Source: Rhodoferax koreense (GTDB taxonomy: Bacteria > Pseudomonadota > Gammaproteobacteria > Burkholderiales > Burkholderiaceae_C). Taken from it: a stretch of DNA of 64,000 nt. The position numbers and the translations under genes are program-made. This document shows, one piece after another, positions 1 through 12,160 of the stretch. Location: assembly GCF_001955695.1 (NCBI RefSeq), contig NZ_CP019236.1, positions 1,116,001-1,180,000 on the forward strand, in the 5' to 3' direction. Every line of letters starts with the position of its first letter. Position 1 is the stretch's first letter. The notes under the pieces are model-generated. The model was not told the origin of the DNA. It saw nothing but the letters and a program-made list of their open reading frames with translations, and did not search any database.

Positions 1-399
1 CTAGACCGGCTGCTTTGCATCTAGCAGCGCGAATGTGTGCTGCCTCGGGCAAGATAAACATCACGGGCAAATGGGGGTGGCCGCGCGAGCGCCCGATGTC
101 TTGCATCCAAGCCACCTCCTGCTGCGGCACCTCTCTGTAGAGAAACAGCAGTGCCGACAGCGCCTGCTTGTGTGGCGATACATTGCGCACGACGGCCAAG
201 TGCGTCAGGAACGCCTCAATTTCCGGCCCACTCATTTCATGAGGGTGGCGCAGCCCATGAAGCGGATGAAAAACCGGACCCGATAGACATACAACTTCTC
301 GGTGGACAGGCTGTAATGTCGGTAACGTAGCCGCTCGAGCAACTGATCGAGCAACTGATCGAGCAAACGAGAGGGTGGCGACGTGGGAATGATGGTCAT
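1..399 (-). pseudogene. intI: Integron integrase (IntI) remnant, frameshifted and cut by the window edge
   Basis: IntI is the tyrosine recombinase that inserts gene cassettes at attI. Reading leftwards from ATG 399-397, the first frame carries the IntI N-terminal arm ([23 protein letters not shown]) and stops at TGA 234-232. A one-base phase change continues the family sequence without stops to the window edge ([15 protein letters not shown], then QALSALLFLYREV, then MQDIGR). A short in-frame loss is seen at VSPHKQAL, where the family usually has VSxSTHxQAL. A 12-base unit, CGAGCAACTGAT, is tandemly duplicated at 336-359 and gives LLDQLLDQ. The last 20 or so residues no longer resemble the family, and the catalytic half is outside the window or lost. 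The protein cannot be functional as read. Family assignment is by recall of IntI sequences. Confidence 0.82.
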
Positions 400-400
400 G

Positions 401-417
401 CTGTATTTAAAAAACAG
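401..417 (-). promoter_or_regulatory. LexA-like SOS box upstream of the intI remnant
   Basis: CTGTATTTAAAAAACAG lies one base upstream of the intI start codon. It has both CTG and CAG half sites but 11 bases between them, one more than the usual 10 (CTGT-N8-ACAG). Integron integrases are known to be repressed by LexA, so the position fits. The extra base, in an A run, would put the half sites out of register and suggests the operator decayed with the gene. Confidence 0.5.
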
Positions 418-522
418 TACAACGAGTCAGGGCCCGTGTTTGCAAGGTGCATACGTCACCGACGGCGAGAGGCTGGCGTGCACGTTTTAACGGATATATT
501 TCGGAAGTGAAAACGAAATCAC

Positions 523-529
523 GTTAAGC
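523..529 (+). other. attI / first cassette junction
   Basis: GTTAAGC matches the integron core site GTTRRRY. The TTAAGC part would belong to the first cassette: it is the exact complement of the GCTTAA that begins the attC at the end of that cassette (1059-1065), as expected if the cassette was once a circle joined at this point. The G would belong to attI. The 400-522 stretch between intI and this point holds no gene. A TATATT at 495-500 could be a -10 element for cassette expression, but no matching -35 is evident. Confidence 0.7.
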
Positions 530-542
530 CTCACCAGCTACC

Positions 543-1064
543 ATGGCCGCCATCTTCGCCTTCAAATGCACTTGCTGCGGTGATATCCACGAAGGATCGC
601 CGAGCGTTGGATATCGAATGCCCGATCAATACACCTGCCTTAATGAAGAGCAGCGGGCATCGATGGGGAAAATAAGTAGCGACTTCTGCACCATTAAACA
701 TGAAGAGGGTACGGACTACTTCATTCGTGCTGTTCTAGAAGTGCCGATTCATGGCGTCGAAGAGCCGTATCTGTGGGGCGTGTGGGTTTCCTTGAGTGAA
801 AGGAGCTTTAATCGTTACGTTGAAACCTACGATTCCCCTGTTGAAGGCGACGGCTTCTTTGGGTGGGTTTGCAACGCAATTCCTGCCTACCCTTACGATG
901 GCTCACGCGCCGCCGATGTTGTTGTACAGCTTGGCGGTCAGCGGCCGAAAGTGGTGCTTCACCGGGGAGACCCTGAGGACGATCCGCTGGTTGTAGATCA
1001 AGTTCATGGCATTTCGGTTTCGCGAGCGCAGCAAATCGCGGAGTGGGCATTCCATGAGGCTTAA
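543..1064 (+). CDS. DUF2199-like protein, integron cassette 1
   Basis: 173 residues. Its N-terminal CTCCGDIHEG and the later PSVGYRMPDQY and SERSFNRYVETYD segments resemble the DUF2199 family, whose function is unknown. The CxxC could bind metal, but no partner cysteine pair is obvious. No signal peptide or membrane segment is seen. The ATG is 14 bases after the cassette junction, and the TAA stop at 1062-1064 lies inside the attC, both typical of a cassette gene. Codon third positions are much less GC-biased than in the chromosome to the right, consistent with acquisition by transfer. Expression would rely on an upstream integron promoter. Confidence 0.8.
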   Translation: MAAIFAFKCTCCGDIHEGSPSVGYRMPDQYTCLNEEQRASMGKISSDFCTIKHEEGTDYFIRAVLEVPIHGVEEPYLWGVWVSLSERSFNRYVETYDSPVEGDGFFGWVCNAIPAYPYDGSRAADVVVQLGGQRPKVVLHRGDPEDDPLVVDQVHGISVSRAQQIAEWAFHEA

Positions 1065-1115
1065 CAATTCGCTCCAGCGGATGGCTTCGCCGCCCGCTGA
1101 GCTTTGGCATTAGCG
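1059..1115 (+). repeat. attC recombination site of cassette 1
   Basis: The 57-base site starts with GCTTAAC (R'', fits RYYYAAC) and ends with ATTAGCG at 1109-1115. The canonical core is GTTRRRY, so the G just before the cleavage point has become A. The inner arms CAGCGG (1075-1080) and CCGCTG (1094-1099) can pair to form the folded bottom-strand hairpin. Overall it resembles the short attC sites of mobile integron cassettes. The terminal A may impair recombination. Confidence 0.82.
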
Positions 1116-1125
1116 ATCACTAAAG

Positions 1126-1734
1126 ATGGTCACTTCTATGCAGCCTGTTTGGGTAGCGCTCATCGCAGCGGGAGGCGCGGCAGTTGGCTGGTTCGTCAAC
1201 CACTGGCTCGCCGTACGTAGAGAAGAAGGCCGACGCAGGCTAGAAGCGCAACTCAAGTTCGTCGAACGACAGATTGAAGAACTGTACGGACCGCTCGCCG
1301 CCGCTCTCTATGAGGGGCGGAGAACATTCCGCGACCTTCTTGAAAGCCTTGGTCGGAACTACGTGTTCCCTCCGAATGGCGAACTTCCAGAAGACGAACT
1401 TCGCACTTGGTTGTTCTGGGCGGAATCCGAGTTCCTTCCAAGGAACGAATATGTCAAGACGCTCCTCAAGACCAAAGCGCACTTAATTTACGGGGGGGAG
1501 TTTCCAGAAAGCTACGTAAAGTTCCTCGACCATTGCAATTCCTGGGCCGTCAATCATCGTAGGTGGAAAGAGCAGCAGGTCACGTATAGCTGGCACTCGA
1601 AGATTAACTGGCCTGAAGATTTTGAAGTGCAAGCGATAGAGACATTTCAAACGCTGAAGCGTCACCACGCGGACCTCATCGGTGCACTGATGGCTAACCC
1701 GTCATTCCAGCGGACCACCTCCGGCGGCTGCTGA
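1126..1734 (+). CDS. Membrane-anchored protein of unknown function, integron cassette 2
   Basis: 202 residues, not assigned to a characterised family. One N-terminal membrane segment (about residues 6-28, VALIAAGGAAVGWFVNHWLA) is followed by a charged helical stretch (RREEGRRRLEAQLKFVERQ) that may form a coiled coil. The rest would be cytoplasmic and is rich in Trp and Tyr. Proteins with this layout (one anchor, then a soluble helical domain) are frequent unknowns on mobile DNA. The C-terminus ANPSFQRTTSGGC is encoded by the attC itself, so the site supplies the end of the protein. ATG 1126 is used here; ATG 1138 is an alternative. No clear ribosome binding site precedes either. Confidence 0.75.
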   Translation: MVTSMQPVWVALIAAGGAAVGWFVNHWLAVRREEGRRRLEAQLKFVERQIEELYGPLAAALYEGRRTFRDLLESLGRNYVFPPNGELPEDELRTWLFWAESEFLPRNEYVKTLLKTKAHLIYGGEFPESYVKFLDHCNSWAVNHRRWKEQQVTYSWHSKINWPEDFEVQAIETFQTLKRHHADLIGALMANPSFQRTTSGGC

Positions 1735-1749
1735 ATTCCAACGTTAAGC
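1692..1749 (+). repeat. attC recombination site of cassette 2
   Basis: The 58-base site runs from GGCTAAC (1692-1698) to a perfect core GTTAAGC (1743-1749). The pairing stems include CAGCGG on the left and a GCTG-containing segment on the right. It overlaps the 3' end of the cassette 2 gene, whose stop is at 1732-1734. Its GGCTAA matches five of six bases of the complement of the cassette start (TTAGCG at 1110-1115), as expected for one cassette unit. Confidence 0.8.
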
Positions 1750-1775
1750 TTTGGAAATGACTTAATGGAGAAGAC

Positions 1776-2327
1776 TTGACCATCTTGCACACACCACGCC
1801 TGCGCCTGGAGCCCATCACGGACCAGCACCTCGACGGCATCCACGCGATGAACCAGCTCCCTGAGGTGATGCGTTACATCGGCGGCCAGCCCGAGACGTT
1901 CGAACAGACCGCGGCGTGGATTGCTGACGCGCAGCGCTGTTGGGCAGCATGGGGCACCAGCTGGTGGGCCTTCATCGAGCCGACCAGTGGACGTGCTGCT
2001 GGGGCGGGTTGTGTCAAGTACGCGCGCCGGGAAGACGAACTTCCTGCCGATCTGGACAGCTTGCGGTGCAACCCACTCGAAATCGGCTGGCGCTTGCATC
2101 CCGATTTCTGGCGCCAGGGACTTGCCAGCGAGGCGGCCCTGTGCATGGCCGACTTCGCCTTCGACAATCTCGCTGCACCGGAGCTCATCGCCGTGCGCCA
2201 CCCCGACAACCTTGCCTCGGCCCGGGTGATGGACCGGTTGGGCATGCGATACCGCGGGCTCGAGACTTGGTACGGCGAAATGAATGCGACCCATGTGGTG
2301 AGTCGCGGGGACTGGCTTCGACTGTGA
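1776..2327 (+). CDS. GNAT-family N-acetyltransferase (RimJ/RimL type)
   Basis: 183 residues. The start LHTPRLRLEPI and the segments EIGWRLHPDFWRQGLASEA and NLASARVMDRLGM are typical of Acetyltransf_3 (RimJ/RimL-like) GNAT enzymes, which move an acetyl group from acetyl-CoA to an amine. The QGLASEA segment corresponds to the acetyl-CoA pyrophosphate loop. The substrate is unknown. It starts at TTG 1776 with GGAG at 1767-1770, a good ribosome binding site. It lies 26 bases after an integron core site, in the position of a third cassette, but no attC was found behind it, so it may be the first chromosomal gene or a truncated cassette. Confidence 0.88.
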   Translation: MTILHTPRLRLEPITDQHLDGIHAMNQLPEVMRYIGGQPETFEQTAAWIADAQRCWAAWGTSWWAFIEPTSGRAAGAGCVKYARREDELPADLDSLRCNPLEIGWRLHPDFWRQGLASEAALCMADFAFDNLAAPELIAVRHPDNLASARVMDRLGMRYRGLETWYGEMNATHVVSRGDWLRL

Positions 2328-2518
2328 GCCGGTAGGCGTACAGCCAACATCGATGCTGGCCCTTGCGCGGCCGGACCGGTTGATCGAAGTGACTGCGGTT
2401 GGTCGTTGCCCCGAGTCCAGCCTCTCACATCACAAGCGCGGACACGCTTTACCATCAGGCTCCCGCCGCTTCAAAGCCGTGCGCTGCCCTTACGCCAGAT
2501 CCGTGCCCGAACAAAAAC

Positions 2519-4312
2519 ATGAACGACACCGTCCCCCCGCAGTTCCGCGGTGAACCCTTGCGCACGCTGATCGATTTCGCGTCCACCGGCGCGGCGGGTT
2601 CCATCCGGCTGCGCGGGGCTTTCGGCGCGCCGCGCCAGGTACTGGCTGCCCAGACGCTGGACGCAGTGCGCCCGGTGCTCGACGCCGCGCAGGCGCTGGC
2701 GCAGCAGGGCCATTGGTGCGTGGGCTACGTGCGCTACGAGGCAGCGCCGGCCTTCGATGCCAGCCTGTCCGTGCATGCGGCGAATGCAGCAGATGCGTCG
2801 GAGGGGCCGCTGGCCTGGTTCGGGGTTTATCACGAGATGTTGCCCTGGCCCGAGCCGGCGCCGGAAGCGGAGGTGCGCGTCGATTGGCAGGCGGGCATCG
2901 CCCAGGCCGAATTCGAACGCAGCCTGACCGAGATCCACCGTGCGATCGCCGATGGCGAGGTCTACCAGGTCAACTACACGGCGCCGCTGCAGGGCAGGGT
3001 GCAAGGCAGCGCCCATGATCTTTTCCTGGCCCTGCTGCGCGCGCAGCCCGGCGGTTTCGCCGCGTGCATCGACACCGGTGAAGAGCACGTGTTGTCGGTG
3101 TCGCCAGAGCTGTTCTTCGACTGGCGCGATGACCGCATGCTCACGCGCCCGATGAAGGGCACGGCGCCGCGGGGCGCCACGCCGGAACAGGACCAGGCGT
3201 TGGCCGCCGCCCTGGCCGCCTCGGCCAAGGAGCGGGCCGAAAACGTGATGATCGTGGACCTGATCCGCAACGACCTGTCGCGCGTGGCCCGGCCTTTCTC
3301 GGTGCGCGTGCCGCGGCTGTTCCAGCTGCAATCGCTGCCCAGCGTGTGGCAGATGACGTCCGACGTGGAAGCCTTGACGCGCGAAGGCACGACGCTGGCC
3401 GACGTATTCGCCGCGCTGTTCCCGTGCGGTTCGGTGACCGGCGCGCCCAAGGTCAGCGCGATGCGCCTCATCCGCGCACTGGAGCCGGCGCCGCGGGGCG
3501 TCTACTGCGGCGCGGTCGGCGTGCTGCAGCCAGGCGGCGCGGCCACCTTCAACGTGCCGATCCGCACCGTCACGCTGCGCGGCCACGCGGCGCGCTGCGG
3601 CATCGGCAGCGGCATCACCTCGGGGGCGACTGCCGCCGACGAATGGCAGGAATGGCGCCACAAACGCGCTTTTCTCGACCGCGCGAGCCAGCCTTTCGAA
3701 CTGCTGGAAACGCTGGCCCTGGCCGACGGCGTGCTGCGCCATGCCGATGCGCATCGGGCGCGCATGCGGCAGGCCGCGGCCCACTTCGGTTATGCGTGGG
3801 ACGAGCGGCACATCGACGACACACTGAATCAATTGGTTCGGCAGCACCCGGCCGGCCTGTGGCGCGTGCGCCTGTTGCTGACGGCGCAGGGCCAGGCCAC
3901 GGCCCAGGCTTTCGCCATGCCCGCCGCGCCCGCGCGTGTGCGGCTGCAACTGGCGCCCAGCGCCTTCGAGGCCGCCGACAGCGAATTCGTGCGTTTCAAG
4001 ACCACGCGGCGCGCGCATTACGACGCGCTGGCGCCCACCGCGCCCGGCGTGTTCGACACCTTGCTGTGGAACCGCCATGGCGAAATCACCGAATGCACGC
4101 GCGGTAACATCGCCGTGCTGCAGGGGGGCCGCTGGCTCACGCCGGCGTTGCACTGCGGCCTGCTGGCCGGCGTGGGCCGTGACCACTGGCTGCGCGAAGG
4201 CCGGCTGAGCGAAGCCGTGCTGCGGCTGGACGACTTGCGGCGGGCCGAAGGCCTGGCCTTCATCAACAGCCTGCGCGGCTGGATCGACGCTGAATTGGAG
4301 ACATCCCCATGA
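2519..4312 (+). CDS. pabB: Aminodeoxychorismate synthase component I fused to aminodeoxychorismate lyase
   Basis: 597 residues, a PabB-PabC fusion of the p-aminobenzoate branch of folate synthesis. The PabB part (about 1-400) converts chorismate to aminodeoxychorismate: [23 protein letters not shown] (the Lys that forms the covalent intermediate), [16 protein letters not shown] and [13 protein letters not shown]. The PabC part (about 420-597) is a class IV PLP aminotransferase fold that releases pyruvate: [13 protein letters not shown] and [11 protein letters not shown]. An open reading frame continues 40 codons upstream, but ATG 2519 begins the conserved region. The glutamine amidotransferase subunit PabA is not in this window. 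Its stop overlaps the panB start (ATGA at 4309-4312), so the two are co-transcribed. Confidence 0.93.
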
Positions 4313-5118
4313 ACGAACGCAAACCCGTCACGCTGCACCGGCTGCGCGAGATGCACGCCGCCGGCGAGAAGATCAGCATGCTGACCTGTTACGACGCCAC
4401 CTTCGCCACGCTGCTCGACACCGCCGGCGTGGACTGCCTGCTGGTGGGCGACTCGCTGGGCATGGTGCTGCAGGGCCAGCCCAGCACGGTGCCGGTGACG
4501 CTGGAGCAGATGGTCTATCACACGCAATGCGTGGCGCGGGGCAACCGCGGGGCCTGGCTCATCGGCGACCTGCCGTTCGGCAGCTACCAGGTTTCGAAGG
4601 AGCAGGCGGTGGCCAGCGCCACCGCGCTGATGCAGGCTGGCGCGCAGATGGTCAAGCTCGAAGGCGGCGGCTGGACCACCGAGACGGTGCGCTTCCTTGT
4701 CGAGCGCGGCATTCCGGTGTGCGGCCACCTCGGCCTCACGCCGCAGTCGGTGCACGCGCTGGGCGGCTACCGCATCCAGGGCCGGGGCGACGAAGCCGCG
4801 GCGACGCTGAAGCGTCACGCTTTGGCACTGGCCGAAGCCGGCGCGGCGATGCTGGTGCTGGAACTGGTGCCGTCCGTGCTGGCGCGCGAGATCACGGCCA
4901 GCCTGCCGATCCCGGTGATCGGCATCGGCGCGGGCCTGGACTGCAGCGGCCAGGTGCTGGTGCTGCACGACATGCTCAACCTCACGGCGGGCCGGCTGGC
5001 GAAGTTCGTGCGCAACTTCATGGAAGGACAGCCCACGGTGCAGGCCGCGGTCCAGGCCTATGTGGCCGATGTGAAGGCGCGGCGCTTCCCGGACGAAGCG
5101 CTGCACGGTTACCAGTGA
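4309..5118 (+). CDS. panB: 3-methyl-2-oxobutanoate hydroxymethyltransferase
   Basis: 269 residues, the usual length. PanB transfers a hydroxymethyl group from 5,10-methylene-tetrahydrofolate to 2-oxoisovalerate, the first step of pantothenate synthesis, in the cytoplasm. Hallmarks are [32 protein letters not shown] (metal-binding Asp), VKLEGG and [12 protein letters not shown] (catalytic Glu). It overlaps pabBC by four bases. Pairing a folate-consuming enzyme with a folate-precursor enzyme makes biological sense. The gene ends 12 bases from the convergent carbonic-anhydrase-like gene, with no obvious terminator between. Confidence 0.96.
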
Positions 5119-5130
5119 GCCGACAACCCC

Positions 5131-6423
5131 TTACTGGGCGGCGCGCACCACGCGGCCGTTGACCGGCTGCAGCGGCCGTGCATTGTTCGGGAACAGCTGG
5201 CCGAACAGCTTGAGCTGGGCCGCGCTCACGGTCATCGGCTGCTTGAAGATGATCCACAGCACGTCCTCGGTGCAGGGCGGCGTGGTCAGCGAGCCGAGGA
5301 ACTGGTAGTAGCGCGGGTCCTGCGGCAGCAACGCGGCCAGGTCGAGCCCGGCCGGTGGCAGGCCGACGCGGTCGTCCACGGCCAGCGGCAGGTAGGTCAC
5401 GATCTGGTCGACCGCCGGGCTGGCCGCGCCGGCCTCCAGCAGCACCGCCACCGTGGCCAACTGGCCGTCGGCGCTGCGGTGCTGCAGGTGGGCCGACATG
5501 GCGAAGCCCTTGCCGTTGATGCGTTCCTCGGCGGGGTGGTGGAACTCCACGCGCTCCAGCCGGTACCGCGTGCCGCGCACGGTGAGCGTGTTCTCGCCGA
5601 GCACGTCCACCTGCAGCAGCCGGCCGGTGTGCGTCACCGAGCCGGTGCTGGGCTTGTAGTCGACGGACAGGGGTTCGGCCGGGCCTTGCAGCGCGTTGTT
5701 GTCGTCGATGGCGATCGGCGACTGGCGCTGGCCGGTGGCGCAGGTGGCGAACTCGGGCTTGAGCTGGCCCCAGGACAACGGCCCGGCCGCGCCTTCGTAC
5801 GACCACGGCAGCGGCGCACCCGGTGCGGTTTTGCTGTTGTTGGCGGCGCTGCCCCCGCGCGGCGCCGGGCGCTGGCCCACGGCCGCGGCGGCCTGCGGCG
5901 TAGCGGCGAAGGCGCCCAGGGCCGCGGCGCGTGCGCGCAGGTACTGGCGGTTGACCTCGTCGTCGCTGGCCGTCGGTTCGGCGCGGCGCGGTGCCAAGGC
6001 TTCGGCCTTGGCTGCCGCGGTGGCGGGCTGGGCCGGCTTCTTTTCGGCGGGTACGGTAAAGGTGAACTGCGGTGTCGCCGCGGCAGGTTTGCGTGCCGCG
6101 CCCGGCCGGGCCGCGCTGGCCGGCTTCTCGCTGCTGTTGGCCTTTTCGATGGCCTCGCGCAGCTGTTCGCCGCGGGCCGTGGTGTCGGTTTTGGCGGGTT
6201 CGTCCTGTTTGGACTGCGCTGGTGCGGCGGACTGGTTCACCGGCCGGCCGGGCAGCGGGATTTTCAGCGCCGGCACGCCGGGGTGGGCCGGTATGGCCAC
6301 ATCGGCCGCGCTGGCGGCACCGGTCGCACCGAGGATGGCCAGCCACAGGCAAGACCAGCCGCACCAGCGGCGGAGGCTGGTCGGCAATGACGGTTGGGGG
6401 CGGTACGGCAGTGGGAGATTCAT
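5131..6423 (-). CDS. Exported alpha-carbonic-anhydrase-like protein with an altered zinc site
   Basis: 430 residues. Signal peptide (about 1-40, ending TGAASAADV), a long Ala/Pro-rich linker (about 40-200), then an alpha-carbonic anhydrase domain (about 205-425: [41 protein letters not shown]). Such enzymes hydrate CO2 in the periplasm using three His ligands. Here the usual FHFHxPSEH motif reads [10 protein letters not shown]: Glu293 stands where the first His is expected, His295 is retained, and the third His (AHLQH, His312) is retained. Activity is therefore uncertain. The ATG at 6423 is chosen because it directly precedes the signal peptide. The gene is divergent from ruvB. Confidence 0.88.
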
Positions 6424-6543
6424 GCGGGCGGGAGGCTGTGCGCAAGCGCTGTGGTTCCCTGCTTTATCGGCATTCTGACCTGGCACTTGAGCCGTGGCGT
6501 GCGGCGGGGACGTGCGCGCCAGCGGCTATAGTGGCAGCATCCC

Positions 6544-6567
6544 GCCGGTGCCGCCACCGGCTTTTTT
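6544..6567 (+). terminator. Terminator-like hairpin in the ruvB leader
   Basis: GCCGGT (6544-6549), a six-base loop, ACCGGC (6556-6561) and then six T residues. This is the form of a Rho-independent terminator, yet it sits 27 bases before the ruvB start and no plus-strand gene ends nearby. It may be a leader attenuator or a chance GC hairpin. A TATAGT at 6527-6532 could be a -10 element upstream of it. Confidence 0.45.
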
Positions 6568-6593
6568 CCTGCTTCCGAGTCCCGGGTCTTTCC

Positions 6594-7655
6594 GTGTCCA
6601 TCCAGACTGACGATTTCGCCGTGCCGCCGTCCAAACGCGTGGTGTCCGCCGCACCGGCTTCGCCCGCCGAGGAGGCCATCGAACGCGCGCTGCGGCCCAA
6701 ACTGTTCGACGACTACGTGGGTCAGGCCAAGGCGCGCGAGCAGCTCGAGATCTTCATCGGCGCGGCCAAGAAGCGCAACGAGGCGCTCGACCACGTGCTG
6801 CTGTTCGGCCCGCCGGGGCTGGGCAAGACCACGCTGTCGCACATCATCGCCCACGAACTCGGCGTGAACCTGCGCCAGACCAGCGGCCCGGTGCTGGAGA
6901 AGCCGAAGGACCTGGCCGCGCTGCTGACCAACCTCGAGAAGAACGACGTGCTGTTCATCGACGAGATCCACCGGCTGAGCCCGGTCGTCGAGGAAATCCT
7001 GTACCCCGCGCTCGAGGACTACCAGATCGACATCATGATCGGCGAAGGCCCGGCCGCGCGCAGCATCAAGCTCGACCTGCAGCCGTTCACGCTGGTGGGC
7101 GCCACCACGCGCGCGGGCATGCTGACCAACCCGCTGCGCGACCGCTTCGGCATCGTCGCCCGGCTCGAGTTCTACACGCCCGACGAGCTGGCGCGCATCG
7201 TGCGGCGCAGCGCCGGCCTGCTGAACGCACCGATTGAAGTGGATGGCGGCTTCGAAATCGCGCGCCGTTCGCGCGGCACGCCGCGCATCGCCAACCGGCT
7301 GCTGCGCCGCGTGCGCGACTACGCCGACGTGAAGGGCACGGGCACCATCACGCTGGACATCGCCAACCGCGCGCTGGCCCTGCTCGACGTCGACCCGCAA
7401 GGCTTCGACGTGATGGACAGGAAGCTGCTCGAAGCGGTGATCCTGCGCTTCGACGGCGGCCCGGTGGGGCTGGACAACATTGCCGCCAGCATCGGCGAAG
7501 AAGCAGGCACCATCGAAGACGTGATCGAGCCGTACCTGATCCAGCAGGGCTTTCTGCAGCGCACGCCGCGCGGCCGCATCGCCACGCTGGCGGCCTACCG
7601 GCACCTCGGCGTGACACCGCCGAAGGCCGACAACGACCTGTTCGGCGCCGCCTGA
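6594..7655 (+). CDS. ruvB: Holliday junction branch migration helicase RuvB
   Basis: 353 residues, full length. RuvB is the hexameric AAA+ motor that, with RuvA, drives Holliday junction branch migration in recombinational repair. Domains: AAA+ large domain with Walker [10 protein letters not shown] and Walker [12 protein letters not shown], sensor region [19 protein letters not shown], small AAA domain, and a C-terminal winged helix ([22 protein letters not shown]). The GTG at 6594 (VSIQTDDF) is chosen; the open frame continues far upstream but without family similarity. ruvA and ruvC are not adjacent. Confidence 0.97.
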
Positions 7656-7675
7656 GCCGGCGACATGTTGCCTGC

Positions 7676-9388
7676 ATGGTGCTGAACCCATCGCCGGTGT
7701 CCGGTCCGGCCGCAGCCACGGTGGTGTTCCTGCCCACGCTGCGGCGCCAGAGCCTGCTGCTGGCGGTGCTGACCGCCCTATTCGGCGGGCTGCTGAGCCA
7801 GTCCCTGGTGGAAGCCATGCGCGGCACCGGCAGCCAGTGGCTCGGCGTCGCCGCCGGCTGCGCGGCGCTGGTGACGCTGTGGCTGGCGGCCAGACTCGTG
7901 CATCAGGCGATCGGCCGCCAACCCGTGCTGCGCCTCGATGCGCGGGGCATTGGCTCGACCCAGCTGCCGGCCGCCACCAACCCCCTGGCCTGGGACTGGC
8001 TCGAAGACGCGGAGCTCGACCGGGCCCACGGCGGCCAGTTGCGCCTGGTGCTGCGACCCGACCCCGCGCGGCCCGACCGCCGGCATTTCCTGAGCGGGCG
8101 CAATCCGGCCCGGCCGGTGATCAACCTGCACATGCTCACCCCCGAGCAGCAGGATGAGGCCTTCGATGCGATCCACCGGCGGCTGGCGCCGCTGCGCGCC
8201 GCGGCTGGCCTGGGCGAAGCCGCCAGCCTGGTGCAGGCGCGGGCCACGGCGCAGTTCGAGCACGAACTCGACCGGCTCACGCCGCACACCTGGGCCCTGT
8301 ACCTGGTGGTGGCCACCAACGTGGCGGTGTGGGGGCTGCAGTTGGCCGACGGCATCAGCCCCACCACGCCCAAGCCTGCGCAACTGCACCAGTGGGGTGC
8401 CAATTCCGCGGCCGCGGTGCTGCTCGACCGCGAGTACTGGCGGCTGCTGACCGCACCCTTCCTGCATGGCGGGGCCAGCCATCTCGGTTTCAACATGCTG
8501 GCATTGTGGGCCGCGGGCCGGCAACTCAGCCGGCTGCTCGGCAACGCCCAGTTCGGGCTGGTCTACCTGGCCACCGCGCTGTGCGGCAGCGTGGCCAGCC
8601 TGCATTCGGCGGGGCAGTCCTCGGTGTCGGTCGGCGCTTCGGGTGCGGTGTTCGGCGTGCTCGGCGCGCTGCTTGCCGCAAGCCTGCAGTACCGGCACCG
8701 GCTGCCGCCGCACGACAGCCGGCGGCTGTGGGCCGGGCTCGGGCTGTTCGTGGTGTATTCGCTGGCCTACGGTTTCACCCAGTCGAACGTGGACAACGCG
8801 GCCCATGTCGGTGGCCTGGTCGCCGGCCTGCTGCTCGGCCTGCTGCTGAAGGGGCGTTTCGACCTCGCCGCGGCTGGCCAGCGCCCGGCCTACGCGGGGC
8901 TGGCGATGGCGGGCACCGCGGCGGCCGTGGTCTTCGGCGTGATGACGACGCCGGTGCCGCAGGTCTGGCCCGGTGCCATCTACGAGGCGCAGGAATCGCT
9001 GCGCGTGATCACGCCGCAGTTCCATGCGGTGTTCCAGGGGCTGGAGCTCGCGGGCCAGCGACGCCAGCAGGGGCAGATCAACCGCCGCCAGTACCTGGCT
9101 TACGCCGAGCAGGTGGCCGCGCCGCAATGCCAGCGCATCGCCGCCCGGTTGCGCCAGCTGCGCGTGCCGCAATGGGACAACACGGGCCAGGCGGTGCAGT
9201 TGTACCGGCGCATGTGCGAGATCATGGCCGAATCCATCGGCCTGGAGCTGCGCAAGGCGCGCGAAGGGGCCTATGCGCCGGCCGATCTCGACGCGCGCAT
9301 GCGTGTGCTTGCGGACGAGATGACCGGCCTGGCCCGGCGCCTGAACGGCATAGCGCGCCAGTCGCCCGCTGCGCCGCAGGGACGATGA
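7676..9388 (+). CDS. Rhomboid-family intramembrane serine protease
   Basis: 570 residues, longer than a minimal rhomboid. Two N-terminal membrane segments (about residues 20-42 and 50-72), a cytosolic stretch, then the rhomboid domain (about 205-400). The nucleophile is in SVGASGAVFG (Ser about 323) and the partner His is in DNAAHVGGLVAG (about 377). HGGASHLGFNMLALW is the conserved L1/TM2 region. A C-terminal tail of about 170 residues is soluble and helical and of unknown role. Rhomboids cleave membrane proteins within the bilayer; the substrate here is unknown. The start is 20 bases after ruvB. The stop overlaps the next gene by four bases. Confidence 0.93.
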   Translation: MVLNPSPVSGPAAATVVFLPTLRRQSLLLAVLTALFGGLLSQSLVEAMRGTGSQWLGVAAGCAALVTLWLAARLVHQAIGRQPVLRLDARGIGSTQLPAATNPLAWDWLEDAELDRAHGGQLRLVLRPDPARPDRRHFLSGRNPARPVINLHMLTPEQQDEAFDAIHRRLAPLRAAAGLGEAASLVQARATAQFEHELDRLTPHTWALYLVVATNVAVWGLQLADGISPTTPKPAQLHQWGANSAAAVLLDREYWRLLTAPFLHGGASHLGFNMLALWAAGRQLSRLLGNAQFGLVYLATALCGSVASLHSAGQSSVSVGASGAVFGVLGALLAASLQYRHRLPPHDSRRLWAGLGLFVVYSLAYGFTQSNVDNAAHVGGLVAGLLLGLLLKGRFDLAAAGQRPAYAGLAMAGTAAAVVFGVMTTPVPQVWPGAIYEAQESLRVITPQFHAVFQGLELAGQRRQQGQINRRQYLAYAEQVAAPQCQRIAARLRQLRVPQWDNTGQAVQLYRRMCEIMAESIGLELRKAREGAYAPADLDARMRVLADEMTGLARRLNGIARQSPAAPQGR

Positions 9389-9969
9389 TGCGCACCGGGC
9401 CCACTTCTTCGGCGCGGCGCCGGCTGTCCCAAATGCTGGGGTTCATCCTGCTGATCCTGCTGTTGCTGGCCGCCGGCCTGGCCTGGCGCCACCGGGGCGA
9501 TGCCGATGCCTACCGGCGGCATTTCCTGCAGGCGCAGCCCGCGGCCAGCCCGCGTTTCGACGAACTGTCGTCGGCCATGGACGAAGCGGCGCTGCAAAGG
9601 CACCTGGCCGGCGTGCCGCTGCGCTGCATCAGCGAAACCCGCGAACGGCAGACGCTGGGCGACCGCGTCTGCTGGGCCGACATCGCGCGGGTGGATGCCG
9701 TGCCCGCCATGCAGTTCGCGGCGTACTTCAACCGGGGCCGCCTGGCGTACGTGGCCATCGACCTGCCGTGGTGGGCGCACCATGCCGCGCTGCGCCAGGC
9801 CATGGCCCAGCTCGGCGCGCCCGAAGCCATCGACGCCAAAACCGCGGCGCAACCCGCGGTGCAGTGGCGCACCAAGGGCGGCCGGCTCCGGCTCAACCGC
9901 GATCCGGGTTTCGACCCACTGGCCACCAGCGCGCTGCAGTGGCGTGCCGATGCCATACCCCCACGCTGA
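9385..9969 (+). CDS. Single-span membrane protein of unknown function
   Basis: 194 residues with one N-terminal membrane segment (about 13-32, MLGFILLILLLLAAGLAW) and a probably periplasmic remainder. It is translationally coupled to the rhomboid gene (ATGA overlap; ATG 9385 and ATG 9388 are both possible). No recognised domain. CISETRERQTLGDRVCW contains two Cys that could form a disulfide, and PWWAHHAALRQAMAQLG may be a helix. Being sandwiched between a rhomboid protease and an exported lipoprotein, it may share their envelope role; this is inference from position only. Confidence 0.8.
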   Translation: MMRTGPTSSARRRLSQMLGFILLILLLLAAGLAWRHRGDADAYRRHFLQAQPAASPRFDELSSAMDEAALQRHLAGVPLRCISETRERQTLGDRVCWADIARVDAVPAMQFAAYFNRGRLAYVAIDLPWWAHHAALRQAMAQLGAPEAIDAKTAAQPAVQWRTKGGRLRLNRDPGFDPLATSALQWRADAIPPR

Positions 9970-9972
9970 ACC

Positions 9973-10992
9973 ATGCATCACACCTTCAACTCCCTTCTCA
10001 AGCCTTGCACCCGGCTGCTGCTCGTCTTCGGTCTCGCGCTGGTGGCCGGCTGCGCCTCGCTCGGTCCGCCGCCGGCCGTCGAGAACAGCCTCGGCATGGC
10101 TTTCGTCCGCGTGCCGGCCGGGGAGTTCCTGATGGGCAGCGACGAGACGCCGGCCGCCTTGGCGCGCAGTTACCCGCAACTCGAGAACCAGCGCTTCCTC
10201 GACCTGGCCGACGAGGCGCCGGTGCACAGGGTGCGCATCACGCGCGCGTTCTACATGGGCCGGTTCGAGGTGACGGTGGGGCAGTTCCGCCGCTTCCTGC
10301 AGGCCTCGGGCTACGTGCCCGAATCCGTGGCCGACGGCACCGGCGGCTACGGCTACAACCCGGCCTACGACGGTGAAACCTCGGCCTCCGGCGACGCCTT
10401 CGAGGGCCGCGACAAACGTTACTCCTGGCAGAACCCGGGCTTCGCGCAGACCGACGCACACCCGGTCGTCAACGTGAGTTGGAACGACGCCCAGGCCCTG
10501 GCCGCCTGGCTGAGCCGTACCGAGGGCCGGCGCTACCGCCTGCCCACCGAGGCCGAATGGGAATACGCCTGCCGCGCCGGCACCCGCACGCGTTACCAGA
10601 ATGGCGACGACCCCGAGGCCCTGGTGGCAGTGGCCAACACCTTCGACCGCACGTCGGCCGTGAACTGGCCGCGCTGGCAGAAGCAGGCGCTGGCCGGCAG
10701 CGACGGCTTTGCCTTCACCGCGCCCGTGGGCAGCTTCGCGCCGAACGCCTTCGGCCTGTACGACATGCACGGCAATGCCTGGGAATGGGTGTCCGACTGG
10801 TACGCCGAGGACTACTACGCGCATTCCCCCGTCGACGATCCGCAAGGCCCGCCGGACGCCAACGTGCACGTGCGCCGCGGCGGCTCCTGGCACACCTGGG
10901 CCTTCTATGCCCGCTCGTCCTACCGCAACTGGAACACGGCGCAGACGCGGTATCCGCTGGTGGGGATGCGGCTGGTGCTGGAGTCGCCGTAA
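9973..10992 (+). CDS. Lipoprotein with SUMF1 / formylglycine-generating-enzyme-like domain
   Basis: 339 residues. The signal sequence ends in a lipobox (LVAGCASL), so the protein is probably anchored to a membrane. The rest is the SUMF1 fold: FVRVPAGEFLMGS, FEVTVGQFRRFLQASG, VVNVSWNDAQALAAWLS, RLPTEAEWEYACRAGT, GNAWEWVSDWY and VRRGGSWHTW. The catalytic Cys pair that true formylglycine-generating enzymes carry after GGSW is absent (HTWAFYARSSYRN), so sulfatase activation is unlikely. It may instead be a binding or structural member of the family. It begins three bases after the upstream gene and probably ends this operon. Confidence 0.92.
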   Translation: MHHTFNSLLKPCTRLLLVFGLALVAGCASLGPPPAVENSLGMAFVRVPAGEFLMGSDETPAALARSYPQLENQRFLDLADEAPVHRVRITRAFYMGRFEVTVGQFRRFLQASGYVPESVADGTGGYGYNPAYDGETSASGDAFEGRDKRYSWQNPGFAQTDAHPVVNVSWNDAQALAAWLSRTEGRRYRLPTEAEWEYACRAGTRTRYQNGDDPEALVAVANTFDRTSAVNWPRWQKQALAGSDGFAFTAPVGSFAPNAFGLYDMHGNAWEWVSDWYAEDYYAHSPVDDPQGPPDANVHVRRGGSWHTWAFYARSSYRNWNTAQTRYPLVGMRLVLESP

Positions 10993-11002
10993 GCGCGCAG
11001 GC

Positions 11003-12160
11003 TCAGGTCAGGGCGCCGCGCGCATCCACGCGCAGCAGCCGCTCCACCCGGCCTGCCGACAGCCCGCCGCGCACGCCGACCATGTGGTCGTGCAGGTTCA
11101 CCGTCGGATCGCAATGGCCGGGGATCAGCCACAGCACGTCGCCGAGCGCGGGCAGGGGCTGGCCGGGCTCGGCGGTGCGCAGGATGCCGTGTTCGTCGCC
11201 CCCGTTGAAGTAGGCCAGCGCCGGGCCGCCGTCCGGGCGGAACACCCGCGGCAGGCCGGAGTCGATCGCATGGCTCTTGTGGCCGGCGTCGCAGACCGCG
11301 TGCGCGGCACTGGTGCTGACGACCTGCGTCTTCACGAACAGCGCGTGTTCGAAGGCCGGCCGCGCCGGGTCGGCCTCGTTGGCGGCGTAGTCGGCGTCCA
11401 TGAACAGGAAGGAGCCGGACTGCAACTCGCCATAGACGCCGCTGGCGGCCTCCAGCGCCATGGTGCCGGTGCCGGCACCGGTGACGAGCTCGACCTTCAG
11501 CCCCGCGGCTTCAATCAAGGCCCGCGTGGCCTGCACCTGGCGCAGCACCTCGGCGATGGCCTGCTGCCGTTCGGCATGGCGGCGCCGGTGCTGCGCGCCG
11601 CCGTGGTAGGCCTGCAGGCCCTTGAAGCGCAGTTGGGGATGTTGCGCGACCTGCCGCGCCAGCGCCACGGCGGCCGGGCCGGGTGCCACGCCACAGCGGC
11701 CCTGGCCGACGTCGATCTCCACGAACACGTCGATCACGTCACGTGTATCGCCGGCCACCCGGCCGATGGCCTCGGCCAGGCGCTGCACGCCCTCGGCGCT
11801 GTCCACCGCGATGGCCAGTCGGTCTGATGTGTTTTTGGCCTTCAGCGCAGCTGCCATCTGCGCGACGCGCTGCAATTTCGATAGCGAAACGACTTCGTTG
11901 CTGATGTAGATGTTGCCGACCCCGCCGGCCAGCATGGCCTCGGCCTCGGCGGTTTTCTGCACACACACGCCGACCGCGCCCGCAGCCATCATCTGCAGGG
12001 CCAGGGCGGCGCTTTTGTGCATCTTGGCGTGGGGCCGCCAGTGCACGCCGTGGGCGGCGGCGAAAGCCGCCATGCGCGCGATGTTGCGCTCCATGGCGTC
12101 GAGGTCGACCACCAGCGCGGGCGTGTCGATGGCTTGCACGGACGCGCCGACGTCGATCAT
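11003..12160 (-). CDS. D-threonine aldolase-like / DSD1-family PLP enzyme
   Basis: 385 residues with the alanine-racemase-like PLP barrel and the C-terminal domain of the D-threonine aldolase / D-serine dehydratase family. The PLP Lys lies in WRPHAKMHKS. The metal site PGHCDPTVNLHD has His and Asp two residues apart, the arrangement I associate with D-threonine aldolase. Substrates would be D-beta-hydroxy amino acids; which one is unknown. The start is ATG 12160, overlapping the upstream histidine phosphatase stop by one base. About residues 85-115 (ALKAKNTSD region) are encoded by a stretch resembling a dispersed repeat (11820-11890). It is the last gene of the pqi operon. Confidence 0.9.
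   Translation of the reverse strand: MIDVGASVQAIDTPALVVDLDAMERNIARMAAFAAAHGVHWRPHAKMHKSAALALQMMAAGAVGVCVQKTAEAEAMLAGGVGNIYISNEVVSLSKLQRVAQMAAALKAKNTSDRLAIAVDSAEGVQRLAEAIGRVAGDTRDVIDVFVEIDVGQGRCGVAPGPAAVALARQVAQHPQLRFKGLQAYHGGAQHRRRHAERQQAIAEVLRQVQATRALIEAAGLKVELVTGAGTGTMALEAASGVYGELQSGSFLFMDADYAANEADPARPAFEHALFVKTQVVSTSAAHAVCDAGHKSHAIDSGLPRVFRPDGGPALAYFNGGDEHGILRTAEPGQPLPALGDVLWLIPGHCDPTVNLHDHMVGVRGGLSAGRVERLLRVDARGALT
11820..11890. repeat. Possible dispersed short repeat inside the aldolase-like gene
   Basis: On the minus strand this reads TCGCTATCGAAATTGCAGCG followed by a GGCAGCTGCGC segment and AGGCCAAAAACACATC. The CTATCxAAAT core and the lower GC resemble short repeats I recall as scattered through Comamonadaceae genomes, also inside genes. 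It keeps the reading frame. The comparison is from memory and the match is imperfect. Confidence 0.35.

Follow-up and report, generated by a model that had tools for sequence, protein, structure and literature searches.

The first 1,749 bases of the window (the whole 64 kb stretch analysed, bases 1116001-1180000 of a 5.80 Mb contig) carry the broken start of an integron integrase gene, an attI site and two gene cassettes ending in attC sites, with an acetyltransferase gene beyond them (Table 1). The preliminary description, drawn from the letters alone, proposed a decaying integron here, and separate tests of the intI remnant, the attI with its matched core and the two attC-ended cassettes agree with it. 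We regard it as close to certain that the window holds a dead integron. The same type of attI recurs at two other places in the chromosome, each time in front of cassette DNA.

Table 1. Features of the integron remnant in the window and of the two related loci
Feature	Position	Strand	Remarks
intI remnant	23..384	-	IntI up to about residue 130; two frames, 384-253 followed by 271-23; catalytic part gone
LexA-like box CTGTATTTAAAAAACAG	401..417		exceeds CTGT-N8-ACAG by one base; directly ahead of the intI start (399)
attI	476..529	+	core GTTAAGC 523-529, crossover GTT at 523
Cassette 1 gene, DUF2199 protein, 173 aa	543..1064	+	stop codon inside the R'' box of its own attC
attC of cassette 1	1059..1115	+	R'' GCTTAAC 1059-1065; R' decayed to ATTAGCG 1109-1115, GTT lost
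Cassette 2 gene, 198-residue protein of unknown function	1138..1734	+	
attC of cassette 2	1692..1749	+	R'' GGCTAAC 1692-1698; R' GTTAAGC 1743-1749
GNAT acetyltransferase gene	1776..2327	+	start 33 bases past the last core
3.87 Mb locus (L011)			attI, then 109-residue ORF without family above cut-off, then attC holding an IS1182-type element
IS1182-type element	L011 8981 to about 10715, 3.87 Mb		NF033551 match; starts right after GTT of the cassette attC
0.53 Mb locus (L012)			attI, then short frames with YdjM-like match below cut-off, small ORF, M50-like frame below cut-off

The integron remnant in the window

Two minus-strand open reading frames, 2-235 and 232-399, match the NCBIfam integron integrase profile TIGR02249 at profile positions 41-109 and 1-36, both as fragments far under the full-length cut-off. 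With the IntI of a relative (G015) as tblastn query, residues 8-51 align at 384-253 and residues 46-130 at 271-23, two segments in two frames with a joint E of 1e-27. The proposed N-terminal half of IntI with a frameshift is confirmed by both searches: the shift of frame falls near 253-271 and the similarity ends near base 23, at about residue 130, leaving no functional integrase with a catalytic part. Extending the sequence left of base 1, as the preliminary description suggested, gives about 100 unassigned bases before the end of a ruvA-like gene is reached (the names ruvA, panB, pabB, rbsD, kdpE and flavin reductase were assigned by eye from the sequence, not by scan), so the catalytic part has been deleted and does not simply lie outside the window. 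A weaker alignment, obtained with one of six IntI queries (L027, an irregular 470-residue frame), reaches about 73 bases left of base 1. A search of the genome with TIGR02249 revealed no second IntI, its other matches falling in two genes only, XerD (362 bits, cut-off 330) and a XerC-like protein (322 bits, cut-off 335).

The expression of intI is under SOS control. The LexA-like box of the window occupies the position of such boxes before the intI genes of relatives, and 13 of 1000 shuffles score as high. Beside the remnant, the attI core at 523-529 is answered by its complement GCTTAAC, which occurs once downstream to base 3000, at 1059-1065, where it forms the R'' of the first attC; the pairing of these two sites had been pointed out before and is correct. 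Within the attI lies an imperfect dyad, ATTTCG/CGAAAT, kept in all three copies and folding rather like a short attC. We considered whether the site is itself a short attC (in the window its two strands fold at z -2.1 and -2.3), and prefer attI for its position next to intI and its matched core. The fold at 0.53 and 3.87 Mb reaches a z of about -1, on the minus strand only.

The claim that attC-type sites separate the two genes also holds. A covariance model built from 10 attCs of other genomes, none from this one, matches 1691-1750 (43.4 bits, E 3e-8) and 1058-1116 (40.0 bits, E 2e-7) in the 64 kb, the third-best match having 13.5 bits and an E of 0.5. The preliminary description had named frames that fail to align to IntI, or attC models that give no match, as grounds for giving up the integron reading, and neither is seen here. 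As single-strand folds the sites are weak: the bottom strand of the second attC, folded alone, does no better than shuffles (z 0.24), and the first is mildly better (z -1.4). The product of cassette 2 has no Pfam match above cut-off and no PADLOC match. It has 143 matching proteins at an E of 0.001 or better, itself included, and the 120 of these listed come from named bacteria of widely separated groups, among them Acidovorax, Bradyrhizobium and Nodosilinea. The GNAT gene may be a third cassette whose attC has been lost; the covariance model finds no attC behind it, exact GCTTAAC is absent there and a copy with one mismatch lies at 2446. The lower GC content noted for the gene set is evident, at 51-57% over 1-1750 in 500-base windows against 67-75% from about 2250 to 12000. 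An Rfam scan of 1-10000 with E up to 5 returned a single weak and irrelevant match.

Two further attI copies in the chromosome

A similarity search and a motif search allowing up to three mismatches place this attI type at 0.53, 1.12 (the window) and 3.87 Mb, always on the plus strand, and the reversed control pattern had no match in the genome. The window attI shares 46 of 51 bases with the 3.87 Mb site (stretch 476-526) and 30 of 35 with the 0.53 Mb site (492-526), the remaining pair agreeing at 28 of 35. The sites at 0.53 and 3.87 Mb are, with high confidence, the same kind of attI as that of the window.

At all three loci the attI core is complementary, in seven bases of seven, to the R'' of its own first cassette, and the complement occurs once per stretch scanned. 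Such complementarity is what integration at attI leaves. The R'' of the window pairs 7/7 with its own core against 5/7 and 4/7 with the other two, and the remaining cross matches between loci range from 4/7 to 6/7. Because of this full complementarity at each site, an integrase probably once loaded every one of the three loci. A genome-wide attC search yielded four sites at an E below 1e-8, all within the three arrays, followed by a partial match at E 0.19. These four sites were part of that search model, and the model without own sequence also finds them, at 30.5-43.4 bits, with 40.2 and 30.5 bits at the other two loci. The 0.53 Mb locus has one full attC, and two half attCs seen by eye only.

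Neither of the other two loci showed an intI or a remnant of one by tblastn. At 0.53 Mb a LexA-like box stands 120 bases before the core (122 in the window) and none of 1000 shuffles scores as high, whereas the 3.87 Mb locus has no conspicuous box of this kind (its score is reached by 160 of 1000 shuffles). The result speaks for an intI lost from the 0.53 Mb locus, and the 3.87 Mb locus may or may not have had one. Upstream of the shared attI stretch the three loci align no better than shuffles.

The IS1182-type element of the 3.87 Mb locus appears to have company. Of 11 loci with related elements that were inspected for it (L086-L094, L113 and L078), 10 show the same end, which in each of these 10 follows GTT, as GTTGA. 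A match to attC model R2 (E below 0.05) ends at the element's start in seven of the 10, including L078, which was in the model, and is lacking at L091, L092 and L094. At three loci (our own, L087 and L091) GTT follows the right end as well. An exact search for the 17-base end in 399 genomes of the order returned our own copy alone, with a query judged too strict, and wide spread is not supported. These elements may perhaps form an attC-targeting group. Elements targeting attC are known in the IS1111 family (PMC11187229, PMC12444791), and the literature searched contained none of the IS1182 type.

Relatives and empty sites

Seven other genomes of the genus were compared, the nearest over the flanks being G399 (80-89% identity, 73% complete). 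In G399 some ten bases separate the ruvA-like gene from the panB that follows it, 133 bases separate the rbsD and kdpE matches, and a gap of about 170 bases lies between the end of the flavin reductase match and a racemase-like gene. Since the flanking genes are so close together, each time within one contig, all three inserts are absent from G399, where secondary loss is possible. The extra DNA relative to G399 exceeds the integron remnant: a pabB-like gene (window 2519-4312) lies between the remnant and panB and is absent between the ruvA-like gene and panB in G399, and a GGDEF gene and others accompany the 3.87 Mb site. The ends of the inserts are approximate at all three sites. The earlier wording, a fossil or sedentary integron, is sound as to the fossil; 'sedentary' is less sure, given two more loci of the same attI type and an insert absent three times in G399.

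Among 399 genomes of the family sample, 110 match the intI-attI stretch, this genome included, and none of the other 398 matches an attI pattern nearly identical to the one used within this genome, the control pattern giving one match, in another genome. Compared with the attI of 38 intI loci of relatives, the site does not exceed the best shuffle in 33 cases and clearly does so in one alone, G423 of the same order, the closest of the set (18 against a shuffle maximum of 15). To judge from these alignments, attI would be little conserved among relatives, so that a low match is to be expected, and the match to known attIs is thin. The attI pattern matches in wider sets of contigs (0 and 1 in genome contigs, 1 in viral contigs) were set aside as chance, lying inside open frames with no integrase visible by eye. 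Plasmid records gave distant matches only, to window 1-560, in five records.

Two observations were made in passing. Another genome of the genus (G400, contig C19, L078) combines an irregular intI, next to a dinB-like gene, with an array of attC sites and with an attC that contains an IS1182-type remnant. A further genus member (G311) holds a single chromosomal attC of 42.7 bits (L079 8352-8410) that was not in model R1.

Origin and meaning of the three loci

The reading to which we incline, by a modest preference, is that the inactivated chromosomal integron of window 1-1749 has two sister integrons in this chromosome and that all three are now dead. Each locus would once have been a complete integron whose integrase recombined incoming attC sites with the local attI. 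The gene would then have been lost wholly at two loci and, in the window, frameshifted and deprived of its catalytic part. With intI gone, the cassettes would be locked in unless an integrase arrived from outside. That all three loci once had their own intI is somewhat favoured as well, although we only infer an integrase gene for each locus. Against sister integrons speak the missing intI remnant at two loci, the lack of a standout LexA-like box at 3.87 Mb, the failure of the upstream regions to align and the thin attI match to relatives.

An alternative is a single integron serving several attI sites in trans, the attI having been copied without intI to two places and the window integrase having loaded all three. 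In its favour, there is one intI remnant for three attIs, each attI is loaded with different cassettes, and the shared stretches are short, 51 and 35 bases. This alternative is nevertheless unlikely, as the LexA-like box at 0.53 Mb, whose distance matches that in the window, points to an intI promoter lost from that locus, and the analysis brought out no known way of copying attI by itself to new places. The corresponding notion of a distributed integron, with one integrase once loading cassettes at several dispersed copies of its own attI, is to be held as a rather doubtful one.

Loci without intI could also arise if an integrase had inserted elsewhere a piece with a truncated attI at its end, comparable to the delta-attI-type cassettes of class 1 and 2 integrons, and PMC12901181 describes such cassettes as existing and recombining. 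They share with our loci a piece of attI away from intI. In that description, however, attI takes the place of the attC after the gene, at a cassette's 3' end within an array, whereas here it comes first, before the cassettes, in DNA not seen as a cassette; we consider this origin improbable. Least credible is that an integrase dropped the cassettes at random (attG) sites, for although insertion at attG and clusters of attC sites without integrase (CALINs) away from intI are described in PMC12444791, a stretch of 35-51 bases in common with the window attI is not what random sites would have, and the first cassettes adjoin sites sharing 30 of 35 and 46 of 51 bases with it. Empty sites of relatives that carried the shared bases would revive this idea, but the motif is in none of the 398 other family genomes.

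Decay of integrons is common. According to PMC2426708, pseudogenes make up nearly a third of intI genes, and among bacteria with integrons a fifth have more than one. With chromosomal integrons carrying intI pseudogenes the window has in common the divergent intI remnant, the attI and the attC-ended cassettes, and it differs from them by the two further loci of the same attI type without intI in one chromosome. CALINs are thought to be degraded integrons (PMC9024848). The loci at 0.53 and 3.87 Mb resemble them in having cassettes with no integrase nearby, yet they keep a recognisable attI and have one full attC each, below the default of two attCs given for IntegronFinder 2 in the same source. 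We found no description of several attI copies of one type in the open-access literature searched. A dead integron alone is ordinary; a set of three loaded attI sites of the same type is not.

Three loaded copies of one attI type mean that cassettes without an integrase can be followed back through their attI, and in this way decayed integrons can be distinguished from cassettes left at random sites. As stated in PMC9024848, IntegronFinder 2 does not detect attI outside class 1. Should the distributed arrangement prove true, stranded loci of attI plus cassettes might be an overlooked kind of integrase-less cluster, possibly overlooked because attI outside class 1 is not looked for.
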